A stretch of DNA of 64,000 bases from Heterostelium album PN500 (taxonomy: Eukaryota; Evosea; Eumycetozoa; Acytosteliales; Acytosteliaceae): the NCBI RefSeq assembly GCF_000004825.1, contig NW_008805073.1:868001-932000 (forward strand), written 5' to 3'. The position numbers were made by a program, and so were the translations under genes. The notes beneath the pieces were generated by a model, which saw only the letters and a program-made list of their open reading frames with translations, did no database searches and was not told the origin of the DNA. Positions 1,955 to 63,646 of the stretch are shown here, one piece after another (the stretch's first letter is position 1; every line of letters begins with the position of its first letter).

Positions 1955-3085
1955 TCATTTGTCCACCATTTGGAAGTGTAATTTTTTTTTGTTGTTTAAA
2001 AGTGTTAATCCAATGAATCTGTAAACCGATCTTAGTTGTTGACCTAATCTTAGTGATTCCATTAATATTTGTTGTTTTGTCATTCGAACATCATTCTGGA
2101 GTTTGATTGTTTCATATTGGGATAGTGTAATACCAAGATGAAAAAATGAATCGGAATCGGTTGGATTACACTCTATTGCTTTTAAGTATAGTTGTTTTTT
2201 AGTCATTGATTGTGAATTATTTAATGTGATTGATTCACCAATTGAAAGTGTATTTGCAAGGTTATGATATGAACGGTAATTGGTTGGATCACACTCGATT
2301 GATTTCAAGTATAGTTGTTGTTTTGTCATTGATTGTCCATTATTAAGTTTGATTGATTCACCATTTGAAAGTGTATTTGCAAGGTTACAATATGAACGGT
2401 AATTGGTTGGATCACATTCTATTGATTTCAAGTATAGTTGTTGTTCTGTCATTGATTGTCCATTATTAAGTGTGATTGATTCACCACTTGAAAGTGTCTT
2501 TGCAAGGTTAAAATATAAATCAGAATCTGTTGGGTCATATTCTATTGATTTCAAGTATAGTTGTTGTTTTGTCATGATTTGTCCATTATTAAGTGTGATT
2601 GATTCACCACTTGAAAGTGTATTTGCAAGGCTATTATATGAATATGAATCGGTTGGATCACATTCTATTGATTTCAAGTATAGTTGTTGTTCTGTCATTG
2701 ATTGTCCATCATTAAGTTTGATTGATTCACCACTTGAAAGTGTCTTTGCAAGGTTATGATATGAACGTGAATTGGTTGGATCACACTCGATGGCTAATAA
2801 GTATAGTTGTTGTTGTGTCATTGATCGGCCTGATGAAAGAATGATAGATGATCGATTTTCAGTTTTAAGAATTGCTGCCAACTTGAAATAAGCATTTGCT
2901 TTGTTTGGATGAAGATCGATGACTTTCAACAAAAGTTGTTCTTTCGTTACGGGTTCACCTGTTGGGAGAACTATTGTTTGTTGATCATTAGAATTATAAT
3001 GATCAAATGTCATTGAAAGTTGGAGGAGTTCATCATTATCTTCAACATTCGAACTGATACTATCTTGTTCATGTTTTCTTTTCAT
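1955..3085 (-). CDS. Protein of tandem 41-residue TPR-like repeats
   Basis: Single exon, 376 residues, ATG at 3085. After a charged leader (MKRKHEQDSISSN) the protein is a row of 41-residue units of the form LYLKSIECDPTxSxSYxNLAxTLSxGESIxLxNGQxMTxQQ. The first half (A at 8, P at the turn, Y-x-NLA) is like a tetratricopeptide hairpin; the second half carries an extra GES-I-L-NG-Q-MT-QQ loop, making the unit longer than the classic 34. The outer units (AYFKLAAIL near the start; FFHLGITL and VYRFIGLTLL near the end) are more diverged than the central ones. The central units are almost identical in DNA too (123-base period). The expected role is protein-protein binding in the cytosol or nucleus; the partner is unknown. 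Confidence 0.75.
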   Translation of the reverse strand: MKRKHEQDSISSNVEDNDELLQLSMTFDHYNSNDQQTIVLPTGEPVTKEQLLLKVIDLHPNKANAYFKLAAILKTENRSSIILSSGRSMTQQQLYLLAIECDPTNSRSYHNLAKTLSSGESIKLNDGQSMTEQQLYLKSIECDPTDSYSYNSLANTLSSGESITLNNGQIMTKQQLYLKSIEYDPTDSDLYFNLAKTLSSGESITLNNGQSMTEQQLYLKSIECDPTNYRSYCNLANTLSNGESIKLNNGQSMTKQQLYLKSIECDPTNYRSYHNLANTLSIGESITLNNSQSMTKKQLYLKAIECNPTDSDSFFHLGITLSQYETIKLQNDVRMTKQQILMESLRLGQQLRSVYRFIGLTLLNNKKKLHFQMVDK

Positions 3086-22365: not shown

Positions 22366-23416
22366 TTTTGTTTTTCTTAAAATTAAAAAAAAAAAACAAC
22401 AAATAAATAAAATAATTCAACAATCTTAAACCACTTAAAAAAAAAATTATTAAAAAGGAATCAAAAAAAAAAAATTATTAAAAAAAAAAACAATTCATTG
22501 ATATTTTTGAAAAACGATGACCACTTTTGCATCATAATGATTTTTTTTTTTTTTTTCATCAATTCATTTGGGAAATTGAAATTGAATTTTGTTTATTTTT
22601 TATTTATTTTATTTATATAAAAAAAATCCAAAAGATAATATTTTAGATAACATATAAGTCATTATTGTAGTTTATCTGAGTCACTGAAAGTATAGAGATA
22701 ATATTTTAATCTATTTGATATTAAAAATCAAGCACGCAAGAGAACATTATATCCAAAAGTAGTTAAAGATTTTATTTTCTTCACACAAAGAAATTAAAAT
22801 TATTTTCAACAAAAAGTTTTATTTATACAGCTTGGTGACTTTAAAACAGAACAAATTAAAATTGATTTTCGTATTATTTTTGTCCATTTCTTCAATATTT
22901 GTCTGTATATCTATCAACTTTTGAACAAATTGTCATGATTTTTTTAATCTTTTGTATATGCAGAACTTGTTACAAAATGATATAGCTAGTCTTTTCTTGA
23001 TGTAGAAAGGTAAAGAAATATTAAAAAAGTAAATAATTAAAGTCTCAGCTAGCTAACGGTAATTAAGATTTTGCACAAAGCTTACCATTAAAATTTAATT
23101 TGTTATGTTTTAAAGTCTTCCTGAAATCAATATATATTTGCAACATGTGAAACTTCTACATCTAAATTTATTACTTCATATAAATTTATTTACAAAGTAA
23201 AAATGAAAAGTTTGTTGTATTTAATTAATATTATAAAATAAACAAAAAAAGTTGTTTTAAATTATAGATAACCATCTTTTTATAATTAAAACAAATAAAT
23301 AAAAATAGACAATTATTGTTTTTTTTTTTTTTTGATTATAAAATATAATAATAATGTTTATATTCGAAATTTTATTACATTATCTGTGAAAGTTGAATCT
23401 TTTTCAAAAGAGACGT
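22366..23416. other. Spacer, no gene seen
   Basis: One kilobase of AT-rich sequence with A and T runs (22440-22555, 23320-23333) between two minus-strand genes. The first part is the promoter side of the synthase gene. No frame, RNA or repeat family recognised. Confidence 0.5.
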
Positions 23417-25273
23417 TTAGATTCTCTTTGGATCGATGGCAAGATTCATGTTGGAATCCATGATGGCTTGAGCATTTCTAAGAGCAGCTGCGGTTGGTAC
23501 TGGGAATTGAGTAAGACCTTCGGAGGCAAATTCGTCAATGGTACCCCAGTTGTCTCTGAGTTTTTGACGGAGATTGTGCCAACCTTCGGTGGTGAGGATT
23601 TGGTCGACGGCTCGGTAGGCAGAGTTGAGTGCACCGATGATCCAGGCATGGTGGACACTGGTTGCCTCACCGGAGAAATGGAGGGTTCCGTTGACCTCGG
23701 ACTTGGTGATGTCGGCAAAGTACTTGGAGAATTGGCATGGTGAGAAACCAGCGAATGAACCGGATTCGAATTCAACTTCATCCCAGTTCCACATCTCCCA
23801 GTCGACGAGTTGAGCACGGAGGAAATCGTAGTCGACACGATGGAGAACGGCGAGATTCTCGAGGAGCAACTTCTTCAATTGGGAACGGTCGTTTTGGATG
23901 GAGGCGAGACGGGTGGCGTCTTGTCCCCATGTGTAGGCGACGAGGAGAGTGTATGGACCGGAATGGGTAGAGTTGATACCGTACGATGGGTAGTTGACAC
24001 CACGGATTGGAAGATCAGTCTCTGATTGACCACCGAAAATTGGCTTACCCTTCATGATGACGGGATCTTCCCACCAACGAGTCTTGAAGGACATACCGAC
24101 CTTGACGGAACGATCGTAAGTGAGGACACGGTAGGCTTCGTTCTTCTTGTAGGAGAGACCGCATTCGGTGGTATCGATTCTCTGGAGGACACCGAGTGGG
24201 ACGGTTGAGATGACGTGGTCGTAGACACGGGGATTACGTTCACCGTCGATGGAGACACGGAGAGTTGGTCTAGTGACGTTGGCAGAGTCGAGACGGGAAA
24301 CACCTGGAGCAATCTTGGTGACACGTTTCTCGAGTTCAACCTTTCTTCTTCCGATGGATCTGACCATGTTCTCGGCGAATTGGTAAGTTCCACCACGGAT
24401 GTAGTACCAGTCCTTACCGGAGTAGTCGTAGAAGTTCAAGATACCTTCAGTCAAGGAGTCGAGGTCGAAGAATCCCGAACCGGTGTTCATTGTTTCGAAC
24501 CAGGTAATGGCCATTTGGTCGTAACCAGCCATGGTATGGTTGGGAGTACATGTGTTGTCCTTCAATACCTCACCCATGTAGTTACGGATGGAGTAACAGT
24601 CGAACTTCAAGAGCTCCTTGTAACCGTTGTCAAAGTCCATAGTCAAATTGACAATGAATGGCATGATAGCCTTTCCAAGCCAGTAGTTTGGAGTGATTTG
24701 AGCGTAGCAGTCTGGGACGGCAGAACCTGGACCACCGTGATATTGGTCACCGAAATGGAGTGGATCTCCCATCAAGCTGTCGCTGGCGTAGACGTATTGA
24801 CCGTTGTGGTAGAGAATGTTGTTGTCGTGGCTCAAGTAGAAGGTTCCGGTGGTGACTGGATTACCGAGCGATTGGAGCTTGTTGACCAAACTCCATGGTT
24901 GTTGACCGACGACACGATCCATGACTGGTGTTCTTGGGAAACGCATGGCACCGAAATCGACATAGTCGTATGGAGCACTCGAGAATTTGAAGGTGTGAGC
25001 ACGACCTCCGAAACGGTCGTTGGCTTCAACAATTTCGTAGGAGATACCCAAGTCTTCCAAGAGGAGAGCAGCGTAAAGTCCGGACATACCAGCACCTACA
25101 ATACCGACTGTCATTGGTCTGCTTGGCTTGGAGAAAGTTTCTATTGGAGCGGCACCAGCACCTGCTTCATTGAGGAGCGAGTTGGCATAGTGACCACGCA
25201 GTGAAGTTTGTTGTTGGGCCAAAACACCGGCAACGGTGATGGCCAAAATTACTGTTAATACAAGTAATCTCAT
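23417..25273 (-). CDS. Secreted flavin amine oxidase (MAO/L-amino-acid oxidase family)
   Basis: Single exon, 618 residues. A signal peptide (MRLLVLTVILAITVAGVLA) precedes the mature part, so the protein is exported or vesicular. Near residue 57 the FAD-binding beta-alpha-beta reads VGIVGAGMSGLYAALLLEDL with the acidic end YEIVEAN, followed by the RFGGRAHT motif of the amine-oxidase family. The C-terminal FAD site is LHFSGEATSVHHAWIIGALN. N-x-S/T sites are present (NLT, NHT, NVT, NGT). It should oxidise amines or amino acids to aldehyde or keto acid, ammonia and H2O2; I cannot fix the substrate. Codon use is strikingly C/G-ending for this window, a sign of high expression. The long antisense frame at 24215-25204 is a by-product of this bias. 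Confidence 0.9.
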   Translation of the reverse strand: MRLLVLTVILAITVAGVLAQQQTSLRGHYANSLLNEAGAGAAPIETFSKPSRPMTVGIVGAGMSGLYAALLLEDLGISYEIVEANDRFGGRAHTFKFSSAPYDYVDFGAMRFPRTPVMDRVVGQQPWSLVNKLQSLGNPVTTGTFYLSHDNNILYHNGQYVYASDSLMGDPLHFGDQYHGGPGSAVPDCYAQITPNYWLGKAIMPFIVNLTMDFDNGYKELLKFDCYSIRNYMGEVLKDNTCTPNHTMAGYDQMAITWFETMNTGSGFFDLDSLTEGILNFYDYSGKDWYYIRGGTYQFAENMVRSIGRRKVELEKRVTKIAPGVSRLDSANVTRPTLRVSIDGERNPRVYDHVISTVPLGVLQRIDTTECGLSYKKNEAYRVLTYDRSVKVGMSFKTRWWEDPVIMKGKPIFGGQSETDLPIRGVNYPSYGINSTHSGPYTLLVAYTWGQDATRLASIQNDRSQLKKLLLENLAVLHRVDYDFLRAQLVDWEMWNWDEVEFESGSFAGFSPCQFSKYFADITKSEVNGTLHFSGEATSVHHAWIIGALNSAYRAVDQILTTEGWHNLRQKLRDNWGTIDEFASEGLTQFPVPTAAALRNAQAIMDSNMNLAIDPKRI

Positions 25274-26570
25274 TTGTATTGTTTATAAATAATATTTGTT
25301 TTTTTCTACAATAATAAAAAAATATTTTCTATTTTTAAAATTAAAACAATTTGAAAAACAAAACAAAACAAATAATATTGTTGGTGGTATTGATACAAAT
25401 AATTATAAATTAATAGATGGTATTGATACAAAGAGATATAAATATATTATTATAAATTAATAATAATATAAATATATCAAAATATATTTATAATAAAGGT
25501 TTAGATGTGAAATGAATTGGACAATGAACTATCTGGAAGCTCTTTTATAACCAAACAGTTGTTGGGTTCACACATAGTATGAAGTTTCTTCCAATCGGAT
25601 GAGGGAACAGGTGGCTATAGTTCGCATGTTTTCAACAGTCTGAGACAAATCAGATAACAACATATATCTCATTCTGCAAATCTGGACCGCACACCCTAAA
25701 GGATTTTTGTGATTACTTCGAGATTTTTCAGGTTCACCAATTGGAATGTTTGATTAAACACACTCCACAAAAAAAACCATCAAAAAAAACTGTTTTTCGT
25801 AGTTTTTTTGCGAGTGACCATAAAAGCAATTTTTTTATTTTTTTTTGAATTTTGCAAAAACAATGTTTTTTTTGTTTTGTTTTTTTGATCGCAATCAAAT
25901 AATTTATTAATAAACTAAACCCCCTCCATAACCCTTCCATATTCTATCGTTTCAACAAAAACAAATTTCTTTTTTTCAAATCTTTGCCTTTCAAAGAAGA
26001 AGATGTATCAATTTGATGTGATGATTGCAATGCCAATGATATATTACTATTTGCAGTCAGATTTTAGAAACCTTTTTATGATTTTGTGATCATTATTAAT
26101 ATTAATTTCTATTTTCTCAAATCAATTAATTTTCTCATACACCACTATTTAGTAAGTCCATCAGATTGGTTACCACTGAAAAATAAAAAGTTTGTTTTTT
26201 TGTTTTTTTCTTTGCAAATTTAATGGTCACAAGTCTGTGATCATTGGACTACGTAGTCCATTTGCAGCTTTCAGACAATTAAATATCTCAATTTGTAAAT
26301 GAACCACAGAAAAAAATAGAAAAATAAAATAAAAATAAATAATTAAATAAAAATGATAATATTTTATTGATTTAAGTTATATATAAATATTAAATTCTGG
26401 TTTTTCATAATTTTGTTGTTGAATAGATAGATTCGGTGGGTGGGGAGGGAAATTTGGCGCGAACTTATGTTATTATTGTTTTGTTTGGATGTTTGTTGTT
26501 TTTACTTTTGGTGAATGAATGAATATAGATTATATGTATATATGTTTAGTTAGTAATTGTTTTAAATTAT
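25274..26570. other. Spacer with one orphan open stretch
   Basis: Mostly AT-rich with long T/A runs (25780-25890). At 25568-25749 on the minus strand a less AT-biased stretch stays open for 60 codons (see findings). The rest holds no gene I can support. Confidence 0.45.
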
Positions 26571-29549
26571 TTACTCAAAATCAAAGAATCGTTCATTGTT
26601 TGTAAATAATTTTCTTTTACAGAGTAGGATAACAGCTACTATGATACCAACTAGTAGGATACCAGCGAGTGGTACGTAGATAAAGAGTTCCCAGTGAGTG
26701 GGTGGATCGATTGAGCATGAGGTGTGGAAAGAATCGGATGCTCTGAGTAATTCGATTTCCAGTGGCTGTTTGCAGTAGTCGCAGTAAGGGAAGTCAAAGT
26801 AGACTTGGCTGGTTTGACGATTCACTCCTGTGTAGCTCTTGATGTAGTAGGTCGATCTGCCATTCGATTCCAATCCGGCGGTAACATTTATCAGTAGCGC
26901 AGTCTTGTCTTGTGAAACACGGAAATACTCGAGATCGTCATTTGCGAAACGGTAGTCGGTGTAAACGAAATCACCACATTCGTCAGTTGGCAATGGAACG
27001 GTATTCACTGACAGACTGTAGAGTAATCTCAGATGATTGTTTATCGATTGATAAGTATAGTTATTGACTATCAACTCATAGTGGAATGCAGGTGCAGTCT
27101 GCGCACCAGCAATGTTACTAATAGTTAGAAGACCGAAATTATGATTCTTCTCGTCGTAGAGATTAAAGAATGAATTGCCACCGGATGTAGCGATGATCTG
27201 TGGTTTGAAGGAACGTGCTTCGGCACCCATGACATTCATCTCCTTGATGGCGGTCACCTCCAACTGATAGACTTGGTTACCAACATAAAAGTTGAAATAG
27301 TTTGCATTGTTTGGCGAGCTCGAGCTAATTCCATGCTTGATATCGGTGGCGCCAGTGAAATACTGTGAGTCACATCTGAATCCACTCCAACCATCCTCAC
27401 ACACACATTCTCCATTCTCAACCTTACCATTACCATTACAAGATGTAATTTGTTGTTTAATATCTTAATTATATAAATAGATCAGTATGTTTGAATATAT
27501 TTGTTCATCTTTTTAATATAATACTTACAGAAGAACATTAGATTATTGGAATAATAATTGAATTTACCAACAGTTAGTTGAACAATTGGTAATGATTTAC
27601 CTGGCTTGATAGAGATGCTACAAACTAATTCTTCGGTGGTGACAGAAACAACTTTACATGGTTGGTTAGAAATGGAGATCTTTGTACTATTGACAGGATT
27701 TGGACCAAAGTTACCACGGAAACTGAAAGTAAATGGTGAATCATCATTATCGAAAATAATACCATGATTATTTCCAACCTCTGTTACAGATGTAATAAAT
27801 GGGTATGCTATTATAATTTAAATAGTTTAGTTATTTAATCAAACCGAATATCATATATTAATATACTAAATAGTACTTACTTGGTTGAACTACAATTTGT
27901 TTCAAATCATTTTGACCATTGATATTTACAGAGACATCGTTATTACCGGGAATCAGCACACCGCTTTGACAGACAATCTTTGTATTGCTTGTTTCATTGA
28001 GGAAGCATGGGAATGAATTGATTGATACTGTAACTGTTGGCTTTGTAAGATTGAATGCACCGGTGATAGTAAAGATAAATCCACTATTAATCTGGGCATA
28101 AGAGATGGTATCAATTGCAGCATCTATATATATAAAAAAAAAGATAAGTTAGTTAATAATCAATCGTATTATAAGTTATCTATTAAATGACTTACTATCA
28201 ATTAATAAAGTGTAATGTGCTGGTATTTTATTTCCTCTGAAATCAATTGTACTATCATAGTTCTGTGTTAACTCACTTGTTTGTTTTGTTTAGGAAATAG
28301 AATAAAGATATTAATATAACTAGTCAAGAGATAATAATATAATATTTAAACTTTCAAACTTACAGAGTGTCAATGACGGAAGTATTCAAAAAAGTAATAT
28401 TCATTCTACCAGTTCCACCGACTCTTAGCTTTTGAATAGTAGTACTATTAAAGATGAAAGTGTAGTTTCCTGGTCTCTCAGTATTCAAATATAAAAGTTG
28501 GGCAATTGGGAAGTTTTGGTCAAATGTATATTCTCCTGGTAACAATGTTAATGTTCTATAAATAGTAAATTTATTAATAAAAGGATTGAATAATTATTGT
28601 TTAGCAGTATAAACTTACGGATCAATAATATATTTGAAAGTTGTATTTCTGTCGAATGAAGTTGGAGAATCAATTTGTCTATTAAATAGATTTAAAAAAA
28701 ATGTTAATAAGTGATGTTTTTAGATATTTTTTATATTATTAATTACAATTTAACTAATTTAGTTAGATTCTTAAGGTTTGAGAAATCTTGAATGGTTCCA
28801 ACTTTTTGTAATATCCTAACATGTTTATTAGGGGTTAGTCCATGGTTTTAAAGTATGTAATCCTAAAGATACTTACAAATTAACTAGCATATCATATTTG
28901 AAAACTGGAATTGAGGTTATAGATGTGTCATTTTGAATACTAAAAATAAAAAAGATTTAGTTATTCTTTTCTATTAATTGTTTAAAAATATTAATATTTA
29001 CGCTATGAAATATAATTTTGGAGAATCATTTAGAAGCTCTAAAATGTTTACTGATGGATCAACAATGGTAGTAGCGTACTCAACATTATAATTTGTTAAA
29101 AATGGTAAATTGAATTTGGGAGGTAGTAAAGTTGGATTTGGTTTAATATTTAAATTAATTGCATCTGGTCTTTATTTTTTGTTTGTAAGTTTGTTAGTTT
29201 TAAAATGATTTTAAATAATAAATTGTTTAATTTTAAACCTTACATGTAAATTGAATTTATATGTTTTCTACCATTGGTTATTATACATTCAATATATGGT
29301 TTACAATTACAAAAATCGGAAGAATTAAAAGGAGCACCAAGTTGGTATTGGTTTACATACCAAACCATTGAATCATCTTTTTTAAAAATAATAATAATAA
29401 ATTAATATTAAATTATTAACAAATTTGGAGATTATTTTGTTCTTACATTCAACTTGGTCTAAAGGTAAATCTGTGGATTGTCCATTTATAAAAGTCAAAC
29501 TTAATGTTATTAAAGATAGTATTAATAATTTTGAATATTTATTTATCAT
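26571..29549 (-). CDS. Cell-surface receptor-like protein: LRR-like, TIG-like and EGF domains, one TM
   Basis: Eleven exons: 29549-29447, 29376-29244, 29169-29002, 28939-28877, 28815-28747, 28678-28619, 28555-28364, 28275-28196, 28123-27881, 27807-27529 and 27463-26571; 760 residues. A signal peptide (MINKYSKLLILSLITLSL) leads into a Cys-containing cap and then an LRR-like stretch (DFSNLKNLTKLVKL; most of these exons share phase 2). Two beta-sandwich blocks follow with the IPT/TIG style (GAFNLTKPTVTVSINSFPC and GNFGPNPVNSTKISISNQPC, each ending in a Cys then V/N-G strand). Next is an EGF-like module (CNGNGKVENGECVCEDGWSG-F-C), a further extracellular domain, a TM helix (IYVPLAGILLVGIIVAVILL) and a short basic tail. 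This is the layout of dictyostelid adhesion/recognition proteins such as the TgrB/TgrC group. Ligand unknown. Confidence 0.78.
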
Positions 29550-30895
29550 AATTTAAAAAATTGAATTGATTTAAGAATAAAATAAAAAAAAAATATATAT
29601 AAATAAATATTTGTTAACTATGATGTAATTGAATGATTGATTGATTGTTATAAACAATTGTGCAATTGAAATGAAGAAGAAACAAAGCAAACAAGAACAA
29701 GGAAGAATATTGTGTTATTGATGTTGAATTTAAATAATCTATAGAGGTTTAATTAAATAAAATAAACTAATTCAATTCGAATTTATTTATATATAATATT
29801 TATATAAATTAATTTAATTAAATTGGATATATGATGATGATGATGGTATTGAAAATTAAATCAACACTTAGAAGCAGAGACTGTGAGTGTGTGAATTGTG
29901 ATTGTTAAGATTATAGGATAATACATTATTGTTATTTTTTATCTTCGATTGGATAAGGAATGAAAACTTTTTTGGAATAGGGTGTTAAAGATAGAGTACA
30001 TATTGTAATGTTTGATTTAATGTAAATATTTTACATATTGCACTTACATTTTTAAAAACACACATATATATAAATATATTCACACACTAAAAGTAAAAAA
30101 ACTCACAAAAAATTAAAGTCAAAATTAAATTTATTAACACAAAAGTGTTTTGATAGTGTTGGTAATATTATTTTTGGTTGGGTTGAAAAGTAAATATATA
30201 TTTATATATGTGGGGAAAATGACAAAGATCATGATAATGTTTTAGTGTGTAATAAAGAAAAAGGCAAATTTTAACTTCATGGTTTTGTTTGACCCTAAGA
30301 TTAGGATCATCGATAGACTTTGAAGAAAATGTACTGAAGATTTACAATTAAATCTTAATATTTAGAGTAGAGAATTTGATTCTTTTTTCAAGTTGTTACT
30401 CTATTTATTTAATTTAAATAAATTTGTAGATTTTAAAGACAAAATTGATAACCAACAATCTTTTAAAAAAAGATCTCAAAATTTGCCAAATTTTACATGT
30501 AGATATTTAAGAATACCAGACTATTATAACTGAAGGTATTATTTTTGCAAAAAAAAAAAAAAAAAAAACGATGAAAAACAGGTGGTTGGTCATTAAGTCT
30601 GTTCATTTAAATTTTTTTTAATTAAAGATATATTTTGTTGTTGTTATTTTTGTTTTCAAAACTTATAGTAGTATTTGATTGAATCGATCGATCGATCTTT
30701 TAATTGTACATATCTTTCACTATAGTAGTAGTAACATAAATCAATATATTTGCATAATGAATGTATTATTATCATTATAGTATTTAGTATAGTAAAATCT
30801 TGTAATATCATTTATAATTTTAAAATAAACATTTTTATTTATTATAATTAGAAAGATAAATAAATAATCAACATTAAAAGATATATAAATATAGT
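29550..30895. other. Divergent promoter region
   Basis: About 1.3 kb between two divergent genes. Its left half is C-poor on the plus strand (G-poor on the minus strand), matching a leader for the minus-strand receptor gene. An A-run lies at 30550-30569. No gene or RNA recognised. Confidence 0.5.
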
Positions 30896-33056
30896 ATGAA
30901 TAATTTAATATTAGTATCATTATCAATTGTATCGATTTACATTGCAAATACATTATATGATTGGTCGTTAGAAGGCAAAAAAGATGTAGATTGGATACAT
31001 CATCACATCGGTATATTCGGTGTCTATATAATTACAGCCAGTATTTTGTATTTCAGTGCATTCTTTATTCTTATAGCTTTATCTTTCACAAGTTTCTACA
31101 ATAGAAATATCAACAATAATAATAATAATAATAATAATAACAATAATAGTAATAATAGATTTGGTAAATTATTTTCATTTAATATCGATAGGAAAATAAT
31201 CATTGCATTACTATTTATATGTACATTGATAACATTGTTTCAATTGCTCAGCGATACAGGAGCGTCACTTGAACATCATGGTCAATACAACCTAATCATT
31301 CTGGTTGGTATAGAACTTCTTTATATTTCCATTGCATTGTTTTGGATTATATCATTAAAGTATGTTAACATATTTATAATCATTTCCGGAAAGAAATATT
31401 AATATTACATATTAATTTATGAAATAATTTTATAGATTATTTAAATTTAAGAATATTATAATTGGTTTGGTTATTTGTGGTATTTTCGTTGGAATTGTTT
31501 TCCAGTCTTATCGGACTGGCTTTGTAAGACAATGGCCGATTGGAATTGCCGGCAAGCGAATGTTGTTCCGTGGCGAGAACGGCGAGTGTAAGATTCCCGA
31601 GAATTTTACACCGTGGCCAGATTTCATACCGAAGGGATTCACCAGAGCGTTGGTTGGAACTCAGGAGTGTCCTACGGAAGTACCGTTCGCCTACTTGACT
31701 GCCGACCACATGCTGCACATGGAGTGTGATGCGTCCGACCCCGACAGCTCCTACACGCAGTCACCGAATTTCTTTACATCGATTGAAGACGCCGGAAATC
31801 TCGGTCGTGAAATACGTCCGCTTTTCGAAAAGTATTCGACGTTTGAGCGGCGTGACAAGTGGAATGGCGAGCCCGTCAAAGTGGTCGACGAGACGGTGTT
31901 GGCGCGCTGCGGCGACAAGACAGAAGTTCTAATGCAAAACGTTAGAAAGCAACATATTCACGAGAGAGCATCGCATTTCACTGATAGTCAAAGAACTAAT
32001 ATTAAACAGCCGACCTCGACAACAAAGAAACCTATCAATATTATGTTTTTAATGGTTGACGCTTTGTCGCGCGCACACTTTAAACGCGCGCTACCCAAGT
32101 CTTTCCAAGCGCTGGAGAAAGTACACACCGATGGCGCCGCTCATGTATTCCAATTCATGAGATATCACTCATTGAAACCCTATACCGATCCCAACACGAT
32201 TGCCATGTACACCGGCTACAATTCGCTGCGCTACGACCAGACGCACGACCCCGAACTCTCGAAGGTTCCACATCCCTCGCACGAATGGCGTCGCAATCCA
32301 ATGTATTTCCAATCGTTCCGTAACGATAGCTATACCACGGCATGGGTGTATGGATTCTGTGAAGACTGGTTCCAGGCGTATCTCTCAAAGGGCAAACCGG
32401 TCGATTCCATTGACCACGAGCTGGTACTGCCGTTCTGCGCGCCAGAAGCATACCCGCCAGCTCAGCCATTCGGTAATTTCGCCGGACCATTCTCATTCAA
32501 ACGTCGATGTCTCGGAAACAAGCATATTCATCAGCGAATCTTTGATTATATCAATCAATACTGGGCAAACTACGAGGAGGTCGGTAAGATTGTTCACGCG
32601 ACGTTCATGGATGCGCACGAAGGCACGATGGACGTGATAAAGTACGCCGACGAGGGGTTCCTGCAGTTCATTGGCACCGATATGTCGGAGCGTTGGAACG
32701 ACACGATGATGGTGATGGTCGGCGATCACGGATCACACATGGGACCCTACTATCTCTGGGCACAGGGCGGTCACGTCGAGGTGGCAATGCCGACACTCTA
32801 CATCACGCTGCCACTCTGGTTCCTCGAGGCACACCCCGAAGTCAAAACCAAGTTCCTCAGCAACGAAAACAAACTGTCGACACCGTTCGAGCTGTACAAC
32901 ACACTGCGAGCACTCTCAAACTACCCAGAGTTTGGTGGAATCGATATCATGGATCAATTGAACGAACGACTAGAAAAAGGTTATCTCAACGACATCAAAG
33001 ACGACATTCAATGTAAAGATATTGGAATACCCTATGATTTCTGTCAATGTCATTAA
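30896..33056 (+). CDS. DUF229 membrane enzyme of the alkaline-phosphatase/sulfatase fold
   Basis: Exons 30896-31359 and 31436-33056 join to 694 residues. Exon 1 encodes several membrane helices (residues 1-22, around 38-65 and 100-160) with an Asn run in a loop. The splice completes a further helix (IIIGLVICGIFVGIVFQS), after which the lumenal/extracellular catalytic part starts. That part has NIMFLMVDALSRAHFKRALP, the DUF229 signature with the first metal-binding Asp, then the MVGDHGSHMG metal site near residue 580. The family is related to sulfatases and phosphoethanolamine transferases, but reactions are mostly unproven. Exon 2 is much richer in C/G-ending codons (GCG, CGC, GTC) than exon 1. 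Many N-x-S/T sites and cysteines (ending C-Q-C-H) fit an exported domain. Confidence 0.85.
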
Positions 33057-33488
33057 CCAAGTCAACTGTTTATAACATTATTAATTCATCATTAAAAAAC
33101 AAACAATCTGATGATGAAATCAAATCAATCAAATACTCAAAAAAATAAATTATTATTAATAATCTCTTTATTATCATTTTGTAAAACTATTCTTTTGATT
33201 AACATCAAAAATTCTATGAATATTAGTATAATTTTGCGATTATAATGATCACACATACAGTCATCAACCATCGATCCATTTTTTTGAATTTTAAACTTCA
33301 AATTTAATTTAATTTTCATTTTTTTTCTTAATTTATTTTACAAACTTTTATTTTTGATTAATTATTATTTTATTATTATTATTAATTAATTATTTTTTTG
33401 AAAAAAAAAAGATATTTGAATATTTGTAAATATTATATATTAGTTAGTTTAGTTTAGTAGATTATATTATATTAGTTGGTTTTTTTGA

Positions 33489-36400
33489 ATGAAAAGATTA
33501 TTGTTTAAGCTTGCAGGTCAGGATGGTGAACAACCTGAAGCAGGTGCTGGTGATAATAATGCTCAGGACAACCAGCCTGCTGCTGAGAATCCAGAGGCAA
33601 CTGCAGACGATATGAGAAGAAGAAGAATGGAGCGATTCCAACAGATGGAAGCAGAGAGTCAAGCTCAAGGTTTAAAACAATTGGAACAAATGAGTAAATC
33701 ACCATCTCCACCACTTACATCTCCAAAATCAACATCTCCACCACTTGCTTCTTCTAAACTTGCAGCAGCTGCAACACCATCATCATCAACTACATCTGTA
33801 AAGCCAACGACAACAACAACAACAACAACTACATCCACTTCTAAACCTGCAGCAACAACAACTCCATCATCATCATCCACAACAACATCAACAGTATCAG
33901 CAAATGCTCATGTAAATATCAAAAATACAATCAAGATTATATACTTTTTATGTTAACATATTTATCATATTTAGAAAATAAGAGAATGTGAAGTTCCAAT
34001 GACAGAGTCTGATTATTATATATTAGAAAAGATATTATACATTTACTTGAAACCAACTGTATGTTAAATGAATTTAAGTTTGTTTAAATATGTTTATTAA
34101 CGAAAATTTATTATTATTACACTTTAATTAATATAATAGTCAGAAAATAAAGCTGTATTTTTGAAATCGTTGGCGACAGAGTTGAAAAGTGAATTGGCGG
34201 CAAGCGGTGAAAAGTGTTTCAAATTGACACCGGATGTGTTGGACAGATTCATGGTGGAGCGTTTGTCGACGGCCGCCAACTATCCCGCTGTAGAATATCT
34301 GATTGCCACCTACAATCGTCTGAAGAACGAATCAAAGAAAAAGGTGAAGCAATTCGTTCAGGACCAAGCGTTCTCCAATCAATTGGTAGAGTTGATCGTT
34401 CGCTACCTAGGAATCATCTTGACGATACCCGACATGTTCCAAAACTCATCGACACCGGCATACGGCACCGGTCCAGTACAACTACTTCCATACCTCACAG
34501 GAGAGTTCACCGAAGAGTTATCCTATGAATTCTTACAGTCATTCATTGATCTCTATCAAGAAGATAAAAAAGATGTAAGTATACATAACTAATTCATTCG
34601 ATCAATTCCATCCATTCCATCCATACTAACTAATTCGATCCCAACGATTATCTCATCTAGATTTTCCAACCAATTTTCAGTTATATGTCAACCAAAATGA
34701 CAACTATCACACTTTTAGGTGATTTCCTGTCATATTTCAAAGCATTTTCTTCGCTTATACAATTCAAGTCACTTTCTGATATTGTAAGTTAGTTTTGTGC
34801 ATGCAAATTAATTTGATAGATATATATATATACTAATGATATTTCAATTGTTATTATCATTAGTTTATTGGATCACAATATTGGAATCCACCTGGAAACA
34901 ATGGAGCTCAAATGGAAACAGCAACGTTGTTGGGTGCTTATTTCTCACCGAGTGCGACATCCAATGACCGTGCTGTGTTGAATCAATACTTCCCGTCGGC
35001 ATCGCAACTCTCACAACACAATATCAGAGAAGCTTTCGTTTCGATTCACTCGGTACTGAAGAACTACGATCAGGGATTGTATCAGTTGGTGCGTTCGTTG
35101 TTACGCTCGTCACCCGAAGCCAAAGAGGCATTCTTGGTTTGGATTTGCAGTGCCATCGATAAGAATGCCGGTCGCACCAAGATGAATGTGAACGCAGCCG
35201 AAGTTGCATCCGACGGATTCGCACTCAACCTCGTTGCAGTGATGATCCTGCTGTGCGAGGCATTCGTCGATGTCAGCTTCTCAAAGGTATCGATGGTCGA
35301 CACCAACTTCCTATTGAACAGCAAGCGTCATGATCTCTCCTCCTACACCAGGCTCTCTGCAACCTCTGAAGAGGTCGAGGAATGGCAGAAATCAAAACAA
35401 TTAGAACCAAGTCGTAAGTTCAAGAAACAATAATACCGAACAACAAATAACAACTTGTTTTATTAACATTCTTTATCTATTTATAAATATCATCATAGCC
35501 AATGTTAATTTTATTACGGAATGTTTCTTTGTTACTTTGAGATGTATTCATATTGCATTGAATCCATCATTCTCAAAGATTAAAAATATATCGAGAGCTC
35601 TTAGAGAGAATGATAATCTAAAGAGAAATCTTAATGAAACTAGATCATCATGGCAAAATGTATGTATAATTATTATTGTTGTTATTATTTAGCTATTCTA
35701 ATAATTAATCTAACTCTTTTGATCAAAATAAATAAATAGACACCACAAGCTAGATTGCATGAAGCAAATCTTGAAATGGTAAAGAAGAGAGAGGATCTAT
35801 ACAAAGGTTTATTGCTATCGTTGGAAGCACAACTTTTTGAACAACAATTCATTCAAAAGACTGCTTTCTTTTTGATTTTCACAACTAAATGGTTACTTAA
35901 AGTTATCAATCCAAATGATCAAAAGTAAGTGTTTAATCAGCTAGCTAGCTTTGTTTTTAAAAACTAAATTTAACTAATTTAATCTTTTAATAGACTTCCA
36001 TTACCATTACCACCAAATATTCAATTCGTAGCATTACCAGAGTTTTGTATTGAAGATGTAGTCGATTTCTTTGCAAATGTTTCAGCGATGTTCCCTCATT
36101 ATCTTGAGAATCTACCATTGGAGGTACTTGTAAACTTTTTCATTACAGTCTTGTCTGCACCAGAGAATGTAAAGAATCCATATCTTAAAGCAAAGATTGT
36201 TGAAGTAAGTAACAAACTACATCATAAATATCCACTACCGAATTACTTAACTTACTAATATTGTGTTATTTATTTATATTAGATTCTCTCTGAATTCATT
36301 CCAAGAGATAATCATCCAAGTAATAATTACTTTGCTTCGTTGTTTGAATGTAGTGATTTGGTAAAGGAGAATCTAGTTCCTTCGATCATGAGATTCTATG

Positions 36401-37383
36401 TGGATATCGAGTTTACCGGTGCTCACAATCAGTTCTATGAGAAGTTCAATTACCGTTATCAAGCTGCACACATCTTGAAGTACCTCTGGAACAATCCATA
36501 CTTCCAGAGCAAGATCATCGCCGAAAGCAGAAAGCCAGAGTCATTCTTGAGATTCAACAATATGATGATCAACGATTCCATCTATTTGCTCGATGAATCA
36601 CTCTCAAAGCTGGCGGACATCAGAAACTACACGACTCTCTCGGAGGGACCGGAATGGGAACAACTGACACCGGATGCCAAGCGTGAAAAGGTTGAGTCGT
36701 TCCATCGCAATGAAGATATCGTCAAATCGTGTTTGATGCTTGCCAACAACAATGTCAACATGCTACACTTTTTGTCGCAAAAGGTGGTCGAGCCATTCAT
36801 GAGACCAGAGATTCTCGACAGAATCTCGGCGATGATGAACTACTTCCTCTCGCAATTGGTCGGACCGAAATGCACGGAACTCAAGGTGCGCGAACCGGAA
36901 AAGTATAACTTCAGACCAAAGGTGCTATTGGAGCAGATGACCGATATCTATTTGTTCTTGGCAGTGGACGAGCGTTTCGTGCAGTCGGTCGTTCGTGACG
37001 GTAGAAGTTTCAAGGTGTCGATGTTTGCCACCGCCGACAAGATCATGAGAAGAGAACGCTTAAAGAACGACGATGAGATGGACAAGTTCAGCAAGCTCAT
37101 CGAGCGATTCGAACAAGCCGCCAGAGAAGAGGAACAAGAAGAAGAGGATCTCGGTGAGATTCCAGACCAGTATCTCGATCCCATTCTCAGCACTTTGATG
37201 CGTGATCCAGTTACCTTACCGTCGAGTAAGACAATCGTCGATCGTCAGACCATCGTCAGACATTTACTCAGTGATCAAACCGATCCATTCAATCGTTCGA
37301 AACTCACCGAAGACATGCTCATACCCAACACTGAACTCAAAGCAGAGATCGATGCATGGATAAAGTCAAAGAAACAAAAATAA
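33489..37383 (+). CDS. ufd2: Ubiquitin conjugation factor E4 (Ufd2/UBE4 family, U-box)
   Basis: Nine exons: 33489-33911, 33975-34058, 34140-34574, 34661-34783, 34864-35413, 35499-35659, 35740-35924, 35994-36204 and 36283-37383; 1090 residues, the usual E4 length. The N-terminus is Ala/Glu-rich with an Arg cluster (MRRRRMERFQQMEAESQAQG), then a Thr/Ser/Pro linker. The long Ufd2 core follows (helical, with the LMLANNNVNMLHFLSQ and YNFRPKVLLEQM-D-Y segments typical of the family). The U-box is at residues 1018-1085 (DQYLDPILSTLMRDPVTLPS, then VDRQTI...DPFNRSKL). It extends ubiquitin chains on proteins already marked, working with Cdc48/p97 in proteasomal turnover. It converges on the Emg1 gene with a gap of about 90 bases. 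Confidence 0.93.
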
Positions 37384-55666: not shown

Positions 55667-58600
55667 ATGGTTTCAATAGCAATCGCAACACAAGAATCAA
55701 ATGATGATTTCATGTATAATATTAATAACAATAACAATAAAATTGTTCCAGGTAAATAAATATTGATCTTTTTTATATTTTAATAATAATAAAATTAATT
55801 TTAATTAAAAATTTTAATTTTTTATTAATTATAGATAAAAAGAAAGAAGATGAAACTGTTTTTTCAGACAGTATAGAGGCGATGCTCAGTACCATTGCCA
55901 AAGCCATTGAAGCTTCTAATCAGACCAAAGATCGTGTTATCAATTTGCTCTTAGGAAGAACCGGTGCTGGAAAGACCACTACCACTCATTATCTCAGTGG
56001 AGAGAAAATGGTTCTCAAAGATATCAAGACTGTTGTCGATGTGGGAGGTGGTATGATCGAAACATCGATCAAGAAGAAGATAGATGTCGAAAATCCCAAT
56101 GCCAAAGGAGGTCCCATTGGCCATGAGAAGAAATCGGAAACCAAGGTAATCTCCTGTAAATCTACTCCAGGTGGTGATCTCTTTGTCGATACTCCAGGTG
56201 CTTTGGATGACCAAGGTCCTGCCGTCGATCTTGCTCATTCGATTGGTGTCACCAAAGGTCTCCATTCAGCCAAAGCAGTTCGTCCCGTCATTGTCCTAGA
56301 CAAAGATACAATCTCCGCTATTCGAGGACCAGAGTTTGGCCAGATTCTCGATTTCTCTTCTAATCTAATTGAAAGAATCCAAGAAAGATTGGGTTCATTC
56401 TCAGTGTTGTTCACTCATTATGATTGTAGTAAATCATCAGAGGTAGAAAACTACACTACAATCAAGGAAAATTTACTTGACCAAATCAAATTCGAGAATG
56501 CAAAAGATCAAAGCAGCAACAGAGCTATTCTCCTACGTTTCATTTACACAGGAGTAGCAACTAAGATTAACTTCCTTACTGTTGGTGGCCAACCCGAAGG
56601 TGTATATGTTCACATTGTAAATCCACTCAATCCAGATGGTGTCCAAGAGATCCTTTCAATGATTAAGAGTCGTCCACCAATTGAGAATCCCAGTCAAGTG
56701 TTCAAGTACAATATATCTAATGCTTCAAAGACATATATTGATAATGAATGTGTTACACTTCAGTACAAAATCAGTCAGTCCATTGATGTTGGTGAATATT
56801 CACAAGCAGTGGAGTGTTTGGATCTAATCAAATTGTTGGCAATTAAACTTGACTTAAAGTCTTTGAAAGAATCGTACAAGGTATCTCTTGCTGGATTTGC
56901 GAAACATTACAATCAACTTTCAGTTGATGTCAAGTCATATCTCGGTGGTGCTTTGACACCAGCTGGTTCACTTTCGATTGAACATTTAGAATCTCGTTTA
57001 TCATCAATCAGATTGATTGATCATCTCATGAAAAACCGAAAGGACGAAGAGAAAACACATTTTACAAATGATATTGAATCTTATGATCATGTAGTTCAAT
57101 GTCTATTTCAAAGTTCGAATGATTTTGAACGTTCATTGAATACAATCACTTCATTTGCTGTTCTCAAAGATCAAATCGTTAAACTTCATTCACTTTCAGA
57201 TTTCAATGATGTATTCACACCTTCCAAAACCAATGCAATCAAATCATTGACAAACAGAATTAATGATTTATTGGAAGATACAATCAATGAAATCAGATCC
57301 CATAATTGGGAGATTTCATTCAATTCGATCCAATCAATTCAACAATCAAATTGTATTCAAGAGTTTATCAAAATTCAAATTGAAAATGAAGTTCAAACTT
57401 TGATTAGTTCAATAATCAAAATAATTGAAATTTCAAGTGAATTCATTAATCAAATATTGAATAGAGAAGGTAGTCTATCTCTTCATGATTTAGGTAGAGT
57501 AAGAGATCATTGGGCGGTAATTCAAACTTCATCTTCATTCAAACCACTCAGTAAATTGTTGGAAATCAAAATTGAAGAAGTTTATTACTCTCCAATTGTT
57601 GATTCTATTGCCAAATATACCAATGACATCCTTAATAATCTATCAGATCCAGCTGGTTTGGTTTCCTCTCTTGAAAAAGTTTCAATTCTTCAAAATTTGG
57701 ATGCAAAGATCAATGATCGCACTTCAAATTCTTATAGATTGGCACTTCGCACAATTAATGATAAAGTTAAATCTATGAAGGAGGAAATTTGTTTATCACT
57801 CAAGGTTACTAGTGATCAAATTACTCTCCAAAGATTATTCAACAAACTTTGCGAGATCAAAAAACTCTCACCGATGGATCCACATTTTTCAGAACCTATA
57901 TGTATGATAACCTACCTCCAAACCATTGAAGAGATTCGTCTTTTCATTATTGGTGTTGAGGATGCAATCGTTGATTCATTCTCTCATAATAATCTTCCAC
58001 TTTCAAATTCACTCTCACAATCACTTCACTATCTAATCAGACCGATAGAATTTGGTCAGAATGCATGCCAAGAAGAACAACAATTGTCTGTTTGCATTGA
58101 AAATACAAAGAATCATGTAAAGGAATTGGTTTCAAGTATTTGTAATATCAATTTGGAGATTATTACAAATGGACAATGGTCAACACTATCCAAACAGCTT
58201 GAAAAACTTGCCATTTTCAGATATAATCAAATGTGTTCTACTTCATCAACTATCACGACCATTGAAACAAAGATTGTTGAACATTGTACAACAAAATGGG
58301 AACAATCATCAAGGTATATCTCATCGAACGATTATAAATCGGCATATGATAGTTTAAATCAACTTCAAAGAGCAAAAAAGTTTGATAATATCAAAACAAT
58401 AATCAGTGACGACAAGTATTCTGAAATTGAAGAAACACTTCGTCGTTCAATCTCCAACTTCCTTTCAAAGATGAGATCATTCATTGATGATGGTAAATTT
58501 AATGAATTTAGACTTCTCCAACCCCAACTTAATTGTTTAGTGGATCTTGAACATTATTATCCCTCTCTCAATACAATCGTTTATGAAATTAATAACCAAT

Positions 58601-61600
58601 TTAGAGAGTATCAGAATGGTTTATTGACATCATTTAGTGAGAAGATCACTACTCGGAACTACTCAAGTCTCAAAGACACTTTTCTCAATCTTCCTGAAGA
58701 CTCTAGAGTTCGAGTTGATCTTCTCACTCAAATTATCAATGTTCTCAGAAATGATGAACAGATCATCATGATATTTGTCAGTCAAATCGAACAAATGAGA
58801 GTCGATAAAGATAAATTTTCTAAATCATTATCCTCTTTTAATAGTGGATCAATTCTATCTTCAATTCTCCCAGAAGAACACAATTTCGAGAGACGGTTGA
58901 AGAATATCGAAGATATTATCATCAAACAGATTAAACTCATTGTTGACAAACTCAAAGGTTCAGTTGCTATTCATGATTTCTATTCAGTTGATCAATATTC
59001 CAATTATATTCAAACTCTGTGCCAACAATTGAGATATTGTTTATCATTTGGAAATCAAATCAATGATATTACACATCAAGTAGACTCAATTGTCAGAGAA
59101 TCCCTTGACAATATCAATGAAAAGATGTTTGAAGAGAAACAATTTTTCTCGATTTCAGCAATCATCAATGGTTTGAAGAAAGTCAGCAACAACTACACTT
59201 TTGTTCTTAAACTTCAACAGATTGAAAACTTTTTCTTCAATCATATTGTAAAGAGATCAGATTCTGTCAGAAAAATGATCAATGATGGTCTTATCATTGA
59301 AGCAAGATCGAATGTTAAAAATATTGAAAGTGATATTCAAAATATTTCAGGACTAATTGCCACAACTCAAACCTCAACTATATTAGAAGAATTGAGGAAC
59401 TTTGTTGCAGAATTCGAATCTCTTAGATCTAACAATATTGCTTCTATTATCAAATCAGGCAATTTTGATAGTATCACAGAGAAAGATTTGGACTCTCAAA
59501 CAATTAAGAATCTCAAAGATAAGATTCTTGAATGTTTATCTTCAATTCAAAGAGATCTTTCACCACCAAGATTTGAACAAGTTGCTGAAAATCTATCATG
59601 GTTTATCGATTTGTGTTCCAACTCTGTCATCTCAAAGAAATTAGGAAATTCATACCAAGCTGAACTCGATAAGATTCAGAAACAAATCTTAAAAATTGCT
59701 AAATCATCAATCCAAAAAATCGTTGATCATCAAAAGGATGATAATCTTCAAAAGGATGATATAGATCATTACTATTCTATCAAAACACATCTATCAAAGT
59801 TCATCAAAGATTTCAATGTCATGGACCAACATTTGATAGAATCAATGAAATCATATTTCAAAACATTCTCTGAAATAATTTCAAGAAACATTGATAATTG
59901 GAAGAAAGATGTCATTCCATTTGAAAAGAATGCAATTTCAGATCTTCTTTCCAAACTCAATACTCTCAGAAGATGTGATAATGCTATCTCAGCATGTTCT
60001 ATTTTGATAGGAAATGTACCCACATACAGAATTGCAATCGACCAATTGAAATCAAAGATTCAAAATCGTATCAGTACTCTCTCAAATGATTTGGATAGTT
60101 CGAAATATGATAAATCAGCATCCACCATTCTTCTTGTTTATGAAGTATATAATCAATTAAATGCACATGATGTTGTATCAAGCAATGATCATCCACTCTT
60201 GATTGGAATTGGACAATCTCATATGGAAATGTTGGTAAACACAGCAAAGAGATATTGGGAAAGTGATGACCTTGAAAACTATAATCAAACCGCTGTTAGA
60301 GCCACCAACTTTGAAAATCATATGAATCGAATTCCTCAAATCAATTCAAATACCTTGGTGAAATCTATTGTTGTTGTTGCCAAAAAGCATATCGAAGAAT
60401 ACTCAGGTCAACTCCACAACAAAGATGGCAATGAACTTGTTCCAAGTTTGACAAAGTTAAAGGAATTTTCTGATAGATCACCACTTCTCAAAGAATTTGT
60501 TAATTTTAATATTAAAGTTGTTTTGGATCGTTTTATAGAAGCCCATGGATTAGGAAAAATTCAACAAATTGGAAAGGAACTTGAAATCTCTGGTCGTCTT
60601 GGAAAAGAAATCATTTCTGAATTCACACAATTCACTGCATATAAAATCTCAATGTGGAATACAAGATCAGCAAATCTACCCATTGAATACATCTTGGAAC
60701 ACATGACCGGTGATGAGATTTCAAAGGAAATATTGAAATCAAGTTATGATTCATTCTGTGCTCAATATCAGACAATTGTGGAAAGAGAAGTCGTCAAATA
60801 TCAAGATGCTGCCAAGAATATTGTCACAAATGCAAAGATGATTGCAGCCAGAATACCTAAGAAAATACAATCCGAGACCTCAAGAGAGAATGTCATCAGT
60901 TTGTTGGCTCATATTTTCGCAATGTGGACTGTTTCAAAATCTGGTGAATCATATGTTGCTCTTAAATTTGATCCAACTGTATTAATTCGCCCTCATCATG
61001 CTCAAGTTTTGGCAATAATGAGATTACTAGGAATTGATACGAAAGAATCTTGGATTAAAAGTAAATTAGGAATGACTGGGGGTTCACCATTTGACAATCA
61101 TCTCATTGAAATATTGACTGGTGAAGGAAAATCAATCACACTTGCAGTTCTCAGTACCCTTCTTTCACTTCTAAAGTTCAAGGTTTCATGTGTTTCTTAT
61201 AGTGCATATCTATCAAATCGTGACTTTACTGCATTTGAAGATATCTTTTCACTATTTAGTGTCACTGATATGATTACCTATTCAACATTCGGTGAATTGT
61301 GTGATTCTTTGATCAAAGAAGGTGGTGATGTCAGAACTCTAACAAATCAATTCATGCACAGCAAATTGAAACCAGCTACTAAAGAAAATCCAACACCATG
61401 TTCAAGAATTCTTTTGATTGATGAAGTCGATGTATTCTTTGGTGATTCATTCTATGGTCAAACATATAATCCAGGAACATCTCTTCAGTCAGCATCAATC
61501 ATTCAACTTTTTGAATACATTTGGAAGAATCGCAAGAACATTACAATTTCTACCGTCTCTAACCAAAATGAATACAAGAAAGTAATGGCTGAGTTCCCCG

Positions 61601-62682
61601 GACATGAAACAATTCTTTCTCAGAAGATTTACTCTATGGTTAGAGATGTCAACAGCTACAATATTCCAGCTTATGAAGTTGATAAAGTGAATCAGAGAAT
61701 TGGATATCGTGATCAAGATGGTATTTCATTTACAACAACCTATGGATCAAAAACAGCATTTGCATACATTGCTGAATATGAACTTGGTAATATCACAGAA
61801 GAGGTTATGAAGAAAAATCTTAAACTCTCAATTGTTTGTGGTCATTGGTCGTTTGCAAACATTCCATTCAAATTTGAAAGAATTCTTGGAGTTACTGGAA
61901 CTTTGAAGACACTAACACCATCTTTAATGAAAATCATCAAAGATGATTTCAAGATCAACAAATATACATTCACACCTTCAATCTTTGGTAAAACACAACT
62001 TGATTACAAAGAACAAGATCATGTTTTGATGGAAGAGAACAAAGACCTCTGGTACAGAAAGATTGCTGAAGATATCCTTGAGAAGACAAAGAAAGAAAGA
62101 GCTGTCATCGTTGTCTTTGAAGATGAAAAGATATTGATCGATTTTGAAACATCACATTACTTCCAACAAGTTGACAAGAGTTCGAAATTGGTTGAAAGTA
62201 CAATCGATAGAGATACAGTGATCAAGAAAGCAACAACATCAAATCAAGTAACACTCATAACAAGATCATTTGGTCGTGGTGTTGATTTCATTGTCAATGA
62301 TGATAAAGTGATTGATAATGGAGGTGTTCATGTCATTCAAACATTCCTTTCAGAAGAGATCACCGAAGAAATTCAAATCAAAGGAAGAACCGCTCGTCAA
62401 GGTCAGAAAGGATCATACAAGATTATTCTCCAAAAACCAGATCTTGTGAAGATGGGAATGACATCAGAGAGTCTTGACAAAGGAATCAAGAGCGAAGGAT
62501 TCTACAAGATGATCGATGAGAAGCGTCAAGAATTGTTCTCTTTGAAATGTGAGAAACAAAAGAAGGTTGTCAGTGAAGCCAATGAACGGGATAACCTATC
62601 GAACAAATATTTAAGTTTAATTTGCAATTATAGTGAATCCAAGAAATCTGAAATTTCAAATCTATTATCTCAATTCAATTAA
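55667..62682 (+). CDS. Giant GTPase - SecA-type ATPase fusion protein
   Basis: Exons 55667-55751 and 55835-62682 join to 2310 residues. Residues 60-250 are a GTPase-like domain: P-loop GRTGAGKT at 69-76, DTPG at 147-150, and a FTHYD strand where G4 (N/TKxD) is expected. Residues 280-1700 are long and helix-rich, without motifs or membrane helices I can name. Residues 1700-2260 match the SecA motor in order: LTGEGKS (Walker A, 1790-1795), the LSNRDF motif like SecA's LARRD, DEVD (1891-1894), the ILGVTGTLKTL motif, the SFGRGVDF motif, then GGVHVIQT and GRTARQGQKGS (from 2212) like SecA's GGLHVIGTE and GRAGRQGDPGS. SecA drives protein export in bacteria and plastids; dictyostelids have no plastid, and no signal or transit peptide is visible, so a cytosolic role is likely. 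Codons match the genome, so transfer, if any, was old. A truncated copy follows at 63017. Confidence 0.85.
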
Positions 62683-63016: not shown

Positions 63017-63646
63017 AAAGATCAAATAGATAAACTCTTTCAACTTACAATGATGTATTCACATCTGTCAAATTCAATACAATCAAATCATTGACAAACA
63101 GAAGTAATGATCTTTTGGAAGATACAATCAATGAAATCAAATCACATAATTGGGAGCTCTCTAGTGATCAAGAAATCAACAACATCAAAACAAGTATCAC
63201 TCATAACAAGATCACTTGGTCGTGGTGTTGATTTCATTGTCAATGATGATAAAGTGATTGATAATGGAGGTGTTCATGTCATTCAAACATTCCTTTCTAA
63301 GTACATCACTGAAGAGGTTCAAATCAAAGGAAGAACCGCTCGTCAAGGTCAGAAAGGATAATACAAGATGATTCTTCAAAAGACAGGCCTTCTTAAAATG
63401 GGAATGACATCAGAGAGTCTTGACAATGCAATCAAGAGTGATGGATTCTATATGATGATTGACTCAAAACGAACAGAATTATTTAGTTCTGAATGTGAGA
63501 AACTCAAGAAGGTTGTCATTTAGGCCAAGATAAATGATGGTATTTCTAACACCTATTTAAGTTTACATACCAATTATTGTGATTCAAAGAAATCCGAAAT
63601 TTCAAATCAATTAGAAGAATTTAACAAATATTTTATTCTAAAATAA
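63017..63646 (+). pseudogene. Internally deleted copy of the GTPase-SecA gene
   Basis: 63017-63154 follows bases 57172-57311 of the giant gene (AAAGATCAAAT..., AATGATGTATTCACA, ...CATAATTGGGAG). Then, within about ten bases, it jumps to the match with 62218 onward (GTGATCAAGAAA...ACATCAAA, ...GGTCGTGGTGTTGATTTC) and follows it to the C-terminus near 62670. About 4.9 kb is missing between the two blocks. In-frame stops occur at 63359 (GGA-TAA) and near 63520 (CAT-TTAG region), and the start is lost. It keeps the GGVHVIQT and GRTARQGQKG coding segments. Confidence 0.85.

Follow-up and report, generated by a model that had tools for sequence, protein, structure and literature searches.

SecA is taught as the export motor of bacteria and plastids, and SecA motors are members of helicase superfamily 2. 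GTPases of the GIMAP/Toc34 group, on the other side of this comparison, dimerise with GTP, some of them on membranes. Here we describe a gene of Heterostelium album PN500 whose product is predicted to join a GTPase that appears nearest the latter group to a motor of the former type through a long helical arm. The gene lies in a 64,000-nucleotide stretch of contig NW_008805073.1 (assembly GCF_000004825.1, positions 868,001 to 932,000), hereafter called the window. By its sequence it is a member of a broad family, present in many eukaryotes and some bacteria, whose members are usually predicted to run from a GTPase through a helical arm and a SecA motor to a C-terminal von Willebrand factor A (VWA)-like domain, the last of which is missing from the window gene. 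We found no description of this GTPase-helical-SecA-VWA family in the open-access literature, and the architecture is apparently undescribed, built from known parts.

The spliced translation of the two exons is identical over all 2310 residues to protein P0002, which carries the NCBI name 'helicase [Heterostelium album PN500]'. A sequence-only reading of this DNA had listed an N-terminal GTPase and a set of SecA motifs, and every one of these motifs, including GRTGAGKT and DTPG of the GTPase, is present in the spliced translation in the stated order. The same reading took the gene to be a native eukaryotic one with native codon use, and this is borne out by a correlation in relative synonymous codon usage of 0.84 with nine other open reading frames (ORFs) of the window, by a GC content at third codon positions (GC3) of 0.28 that falls inside their range of 0.21-0.60, and by a GT..AG intron. 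The gene is native and nuclear, and the host is not known to have a plastid. Hydropathy gave no long hydrophobic stretch (the highest 19-residue mean, 1.64, lies beside Walker A) and offers no support for reading the product as a membrane protein.

The identity of the motor is indicated by several comparisons. Pfam SecA_DEAD matches it with 34.2 bits (cut-off 24.6), P-loop_SecA stays below its cut-off (22.2 bits, cut-off 27), and all 17 matches at E <= 1 in a PDB sequence search are SecA. A search with the family motor profile is led by 24 SecA sequences, the next match being a helicase at 3e-3, and hhalign pairs the motor with SecA at 100%, E 1e-41. The predicted fold is also nearer SecA than other superfamily 2 motors, over 544 aligned residues at 16% identity. 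The SecA-type motor of the sequence-only reading is thus upheld by profile, motif order and PDB matches, and neither profile nor fold points to an ordinary helicase. Like the SecA and SecA2 proteins of bacteria and plastids, with which it shares the order of its motifs, the window motor has an insert of similar length between motifs II and III (157 residues from DEVD to VTGT versus 182 from DEVD to TGT in Escherichia coli SecA), which Pfam SecA_PP_bind does not match. We conclude that the protein contains a predicted SecA-type ATPase with intact catalytic motifs and a SecA-like insert. In contrast to SecA, the motor shares its chain with a GTPase and a helical arm, and it continues for only 92 residues after motif VI where E. 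coli SecA keeps 322; therefore there is no room for the helical wing and the full two-helix finger. A long helix and a short one close the motor model, and on this comparison the window protein lacks the C-terminal part of SecA that is specific to export.

The N-terminal domain is predicted to be a TRAFAC-type GTPase whose nearest relatives appear to be GIMAP and Toc34. In fold comparison it scored highest with GIMAP7 (14.2), GIMAP2 (14.0) and Toc34 (13.2), with Era close at 12.7, and mitofusin, Irga6 and dynamin were also among the matches. Among the profile searches, Pfam AIG1 gave no match to the window gene's GTPase at E <= 1 and matched four of 12 family GTPase domains (best E 0.0003), while Dynamin_N was found in 7/12 (best E 0.004), MMR_HSR1 in 11/12, and both ABC_tran and RsgA in 12/12. 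Against PDB the best rows of the GTPase profile were bare P-loop matches (ABC transporter 3e-7, SRP54 1e-6, then midasin), followed lower down by GIMAP4 at 0.007 and septins at 0.014-0.03, rows that do not single out one GTPase family. In the dynamin/AIG1/IRG comparison proposed earlier, the fold appears nearer GIMAP/Toc34 than dynamin or IRG, but the AIG1 profile itself went unmatched. The window gene's domain also differs from GIMAP/AIG1 and Toc34 GTPases in being joined to a motor.

Between GTPase and motor lies the helical arm. Two stretches of it, on either side of residues 645-1444, were modelled and are predicted to be almost wholly helix, and a regular-expression search for repeats gave scattered matches only. 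The features are collected in Table 1.

Table 1. Features of the GTPase-SecA gene and its broken neighbour (coordinates are those of the window)
Feature	Coordinates	Strand	Residues	Basis
Whole gene, two exons	55667..62682	+	2310 aa	spliced translation identical to P0002
Exon 1	55667-55751	+		spliced translation
Intron, 83 bases, GT..AG	55752..55834	+		
Exon 2	55835-62682	+		spliced translation
N-terminal GTPase domain	55900..56784	+	51-345	
G1 / P-loop GRTGAGKT	55954..55977	+	69-76	translation
G3 DTPG	56188..56199	+	147-150	translation
Probable G4 FTHYD	56410..56424	+		translation and alignment of GTPase domains
Helical arm	56785..60699	+	~1300 residues	structure models of two stretches
SecA-type motor: two nucleotide-binding domains, clamp-like insert, long scaffold-like helix	60706..62679	+		
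Walker A TGEGKS	61117..61134	+	1790-1795	translation
Walker B / motif II IDEVD	61417..61431	+	1890-1894	translation
Motif III VTGT	61891..61902	+	2048-2051	translation
Motif V GRGVD	62272..62286	+	2175-2179	translation
GGVHVIQT			2191-2198	translation
Motif VI GRTARQG	62383..62403	+	2212-2218	translation
Broken tandem copy, in-frame stops	63034..63625	+		tblastn, translation

Queried with the motor, a collection of 5.8 billion proteins yielded 784 matches at E <= 0.001, 120 of which were listed. The sources named among these 120 are Heterostelium, Acytostelium, Reticulomyxa, Rotaria, Adineta, Didymodactylos, Hexamita, Blepharisma, Arcella and one gammaproteobacterial metagenome-assembled genome (MAG), while the Tetrahymena and Hydra members were found by a search with a bacterial relative. 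The family spans amoebae, ciliates, foraminifera, diplomonads, rotifers and Hydra, together with bacteria of protist-dwelling groups. Heterostelium and Acytostelium are the only dictyostelids named among the 120 matches listed, and no search was made for a dictyostelid free of the family. Two family hidden Markov models (HMMs), built from 12 sequences each, of which all or almost all also belong to the 120, found the GTPase in 83/120 listed proteins (including 69 of the 70 with 2500 residues or more), the C-terminal domain in 95/120, both in 64/120 and neither in 6/120. A recount on proteins outside HMM building took in 46 relatives from the bacterial-relative search and eight close bacterial loci. 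The 46 carry the GTPase in 40 cases, the C-terminal domain in 43 and both in 37; both domains occur in all eight Tetrahymena proteins and in two of four Hydra proteins, the other two having the C-terminal domain alone.

The C-terminal domain itself is VWA-like as judged by motif and profile. DATGSM or a near form of it is present in the 12 sequences examined, and the C-terminal ends of P0075, P0099 and P0031 score above the cut-off of Pfam VWA_4 or VWA; these three proteins were picked because they are among the 12/120 rows already bearing a Pfam VWA accession. The window gene belongs to the family by its GTPase and by a motor of the same clade, and not by a C-terminal VWA. The VWA HMM is unmatched in the six-row dictyostelid clade (four rows of which are Heterostelium or Acytostelium), and no MIDAS (metal-ion-dependent adhesion site)-like DxTGSM/DxSGSM was found in the last 450 residues of these six rows. 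Five of the six stop 93-97 residues after the last motif of the motor, and P0006 continues for 479. Loss is the likeliest explanation because the rows beside them in the tree carry VWA; thus the dictyostelid rows have probably lost this domain.

The window gene heads a tandem cluster on its contig (C12), as determined from a SecA_DEAD genome search, which gives a lower bound on copy number, and from tblastn over 50 kb of C12. The cluster consists of one intact gene, one open frame with a decayed P-loop, one broken fragment and one interrupted copy. In the broken copy, which the sequence-only reading did not mention, a piece like residues 481-523 stands beside a piece like residues 2143-2310; this copy (L008) runs past the window end to C12:932961 with its pieces out of order. 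Copy 3 is an open frame of 2062 codons, without P-loop and DTPG, that is 57 and 61% identical to the window gene in two stretches. The ratio of nonsynonymous to synonymous substitution rates (dN/dS) between the two was estimated at 0.39 for the GTPase, 0.38 for the motor and 0.43 and 0.47 for two regions of the arm, values that indicate that this pair is under constraint. Copy 4 is split by ~4.8 kb that contain reverse-strand frames and has an in-frame TAG. One of these frames (which lie in L019:2977-7353, minus strand) contains QLQMGEGKTSVI, with a GEGKT motif, and presumably resembles DUF3638 proteins. Clustered relatives also seem to exist in Tetrahymena, Hydra and Hexamita, to judge from neighbouring locus tags or equal-sized contigs.

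At least three other SecA-like genes occur in the genome; ankyrin repeats are present in one of them and an L-type lectin-like domain in each of two more. The latter two (L016:736-8877, minus strand; L013:3107-9899, plus strand) appear to combine their lectin-like domain (74.4 and 70.4 bits, cut-off 78.3) with a SecA-like motor, the lectin and motor parts of L013 lying in overlapping frames that are taken as one gene. DUF3638 also matches both lectin-SecA genes, below cut-off, which may point to a relationship between DUF3638 and SecA motors. The ankyrin-SecA gene is PPL_05043 (L012:792-5465). Among the 120 matches listed for it, all other named proteins are bacterial (Legionella, Chlamydiae, Margulisbacteria, Gammaproteobacteria), and some of these relatives bear further domain accessions. 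This ankyrin-SecA-like group, which includes Legionella, Parachlamydiaceae and other bacteria, has a SecA-like motor and occurs in the same kinds of organisms as the window family. However, it lies outside the clade of the window gene, its motor matches the Pfam SecA models far better (177.5 bits), and it has ankyrin and other domains where the window family has the GTPase.

A scan of prokaryotes with one genome per species gave 55 loci. Eight of these (L020-L027) are close relatives with E 3e-71 or better, from MAGs of Legionellales, Gammaproteobacteria, Chlamydiae, Margulisbacteria and Actinomycetota. Each of the eight carries the GTPase domain; the VWA-like domain is present in L020, L021, L022 and L027 and absent from L023 and L026, and contig ends truncate L024 and L025. 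The contig of L020 is truly bacterial and has genes for DNA polymerase III alpha, RecJ and an ankyrin-PARP protein as neighbours. The last of these (L020:14829-17159, minus strand, in a Legionellales MAG) is one gene away from the GTPase-SecA-VWA gene. A scan of viral contigs gave 59 pattern matches, none of which was confirmed.

The main tree has 77 rows and takes in 22 of the 47 weaker bacterial loci, the other 25 being left out. A single clade of 51 rows, with support 100/100 and on a long branch, takes in every one of the eight close bacterial loci and excludes the 22 others, and the dictyostelid rows group together inside it (100/99). When the tree is rooted on SecA of E. coli and Paenibacillus, bacterial rows (L023-L026, with L026 placed at 97/76) branch off first within the clade, and further bacterial rows are nested among eukaryotes. 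Approximately unbiased (AU) tests on 37 of the 77 rows rejected a single group of all the clade's eukaryotes (p 0.0025) and also a single group of all nine close bacterial rows (p 0.001); metagenome rows of unclear origin and many bacterial outgroup rows were dropped from these tests, seven of the 23 eukaryotic rows carry the source label eukprot only, and the groups were named after sight of a similar tree. These results fit an old bacterial origin of the family followed by later transfers, some of which at least returned it to bacteria, with a root that is uncertain because of the long branch. The sequence-only reading needs amending in that the gene does not stand alone and belongs to a family that some bacteria share. 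Bacterial groups known to live in protists are among those that carry the family. Additionally, in a paper on Legionella genomes a table of genes acquired from eukaryotes contains one line for lfa2470 of Legionella fallonii, 'SecA DEAD-like' (PMC4256840), which by this label hints at a SecA-like gene moving from a eukaryote to an amoeba-dwelling bacterium.

With somewhat less than even confidence, we propose that the window protein is a cytosolic two-nucleotide unfoldase or segregase that is recruited by its GTPase and has diversified in conflict between eukaryotes and bacteria. The GTPase would recruit or dimerise the protein on a membrane or target, acting as recruitment device or on-switch, and the helical arm would set the distance. 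A polypeptide would be gripped in the clamp between the second nucleotide-binding domain, the insert and the scaffold helix and moved by ATP, so that the motor pulls or unfolds it or separates complexes and does not export. Unfolding or complex separation seems likelier than work at a membrane channel because the wing and full finger are absent. In most relatives the VWA domain may help to hold the substrate. The segregase p97 acts on ubiquitin-marked substrates; by analogy, a U-box in 3/120 listed relatives and accessions in the sister-group members P0231, P0267 and P0273, which we take to be ubiquitin protease (PF00443) and UBA, suggest that such substrates may be handled here as well. The family may diversify as eukaryotes that eat or house bacteria confront bacteria, some of which have acquired it, and its occurrence in bacteria-eaters and protist-dwelling bacterial groups, together with the decaying cluster, suggests host-bacterium conflict. 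From circumstantial points, namely the tandem cluster with decayed copies, the sharing with host-associated bacterial groups and the rare sensor or ubiquitin-type fusions, we infer that the protein may act on ingested bacteria or in self-defence, as the sequence-only reading had suggested. A bolder version, in which an immunity-type GTPase gates a SecA-powered cytosolic unfoldase for cell-autonomous defence, a further protein-pulling engine beside AAA+ machines, Hsp70 and translocons, and intracellular bacteria have repeatedly captured it for use against their hosts, strikes us as rather unlikely.

Several observations weigh against this proposal. GTP specificity is putative because the G4 Asp is missing from 9/12 aligned GTPase domains, and all eight close bacterial loci come from MAGs. 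Pfam finds no VWA in P0059, P0024, P0062 and L020-L022, where the family HMM does, and profile comparison of the two VWA types is weak (89.6% over 58 columns). The ubiquitin-type fusions are rare, with none seen in dictyostelids. Finally, positive selection was not detected between the window gene and copy 3, the dN/dS of 0.38-0.47 in all four regions giving no sign of it in this one pair.

The purifying selection on that pair, and the presence of the family in many eukaryotes, would suit a factor of general trafficking or proteostasis that takes no part in conflict, with an arm for tethering membranes and a motor for remodelling protein complexes. The first Foldseek match of the N-terminal model is indeed the helical rod Exo70 (E 3e-4), but the match is weak (template-modelling score ~0.25, root-mean-square deviation 20), and tandem arrays with decay and exchange with bacteria are unusual for a housekeeping factor; we regard this explanation as unlikely. 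Less probable still is a true translocase that, like SecA at SecY, would feed proteins into a host or phagosome channel such as Sec61. The SecA-type motor, its clamp-like insert and the place of Toc34, a translocon GTPase, among the nearest folds of the GTPase speak for it, whereas the short end after motif VI and the lack of a long hydrophobic segment speak against it. A decaying relic of a bacterial gene without present function is highly improbable: the copies next to it are either broken or devoid of the P-loop and VWA is absent, but the window gene retains 2310 open codons, its catalytic motifs and an intron, dN/dS is ~0.4, and the dictyostelid rows form their well-supported clade. A nucleic-acid helicase, as in the NCBI name, is just as improbable, membership of SecA motors in superfamily 2 and a Helicase_C match of 11.9 bits (under the cut-off of 23.5) being the points in its favour.

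A conserved family that joins this motor to a GIMAP-like GTPase, and mostly to a VWA domain, would give SecA motors a wider role than bacterial and plastid export and would be a new candidate for a system of cell-autonomous immunity, one that can be tested in a laboratory amoeba.

Three minor observations were made in passing. Two Elusimicrobia frames of 5255 and 4433 codons (L054:2161-17925 and L056:3416-16714) have a SecA-like motor inside. The GC3 of nine window ORFs falls into two classes, 0.55-0.60 in four (20307 to 37380) and 0.21-0.34 in the other five. At 1958-3085 on the minus strand, Pfam TPR_17 reaches 241.6 bits in 376 residues over seven stretches, perhaps near-identical repeat units.
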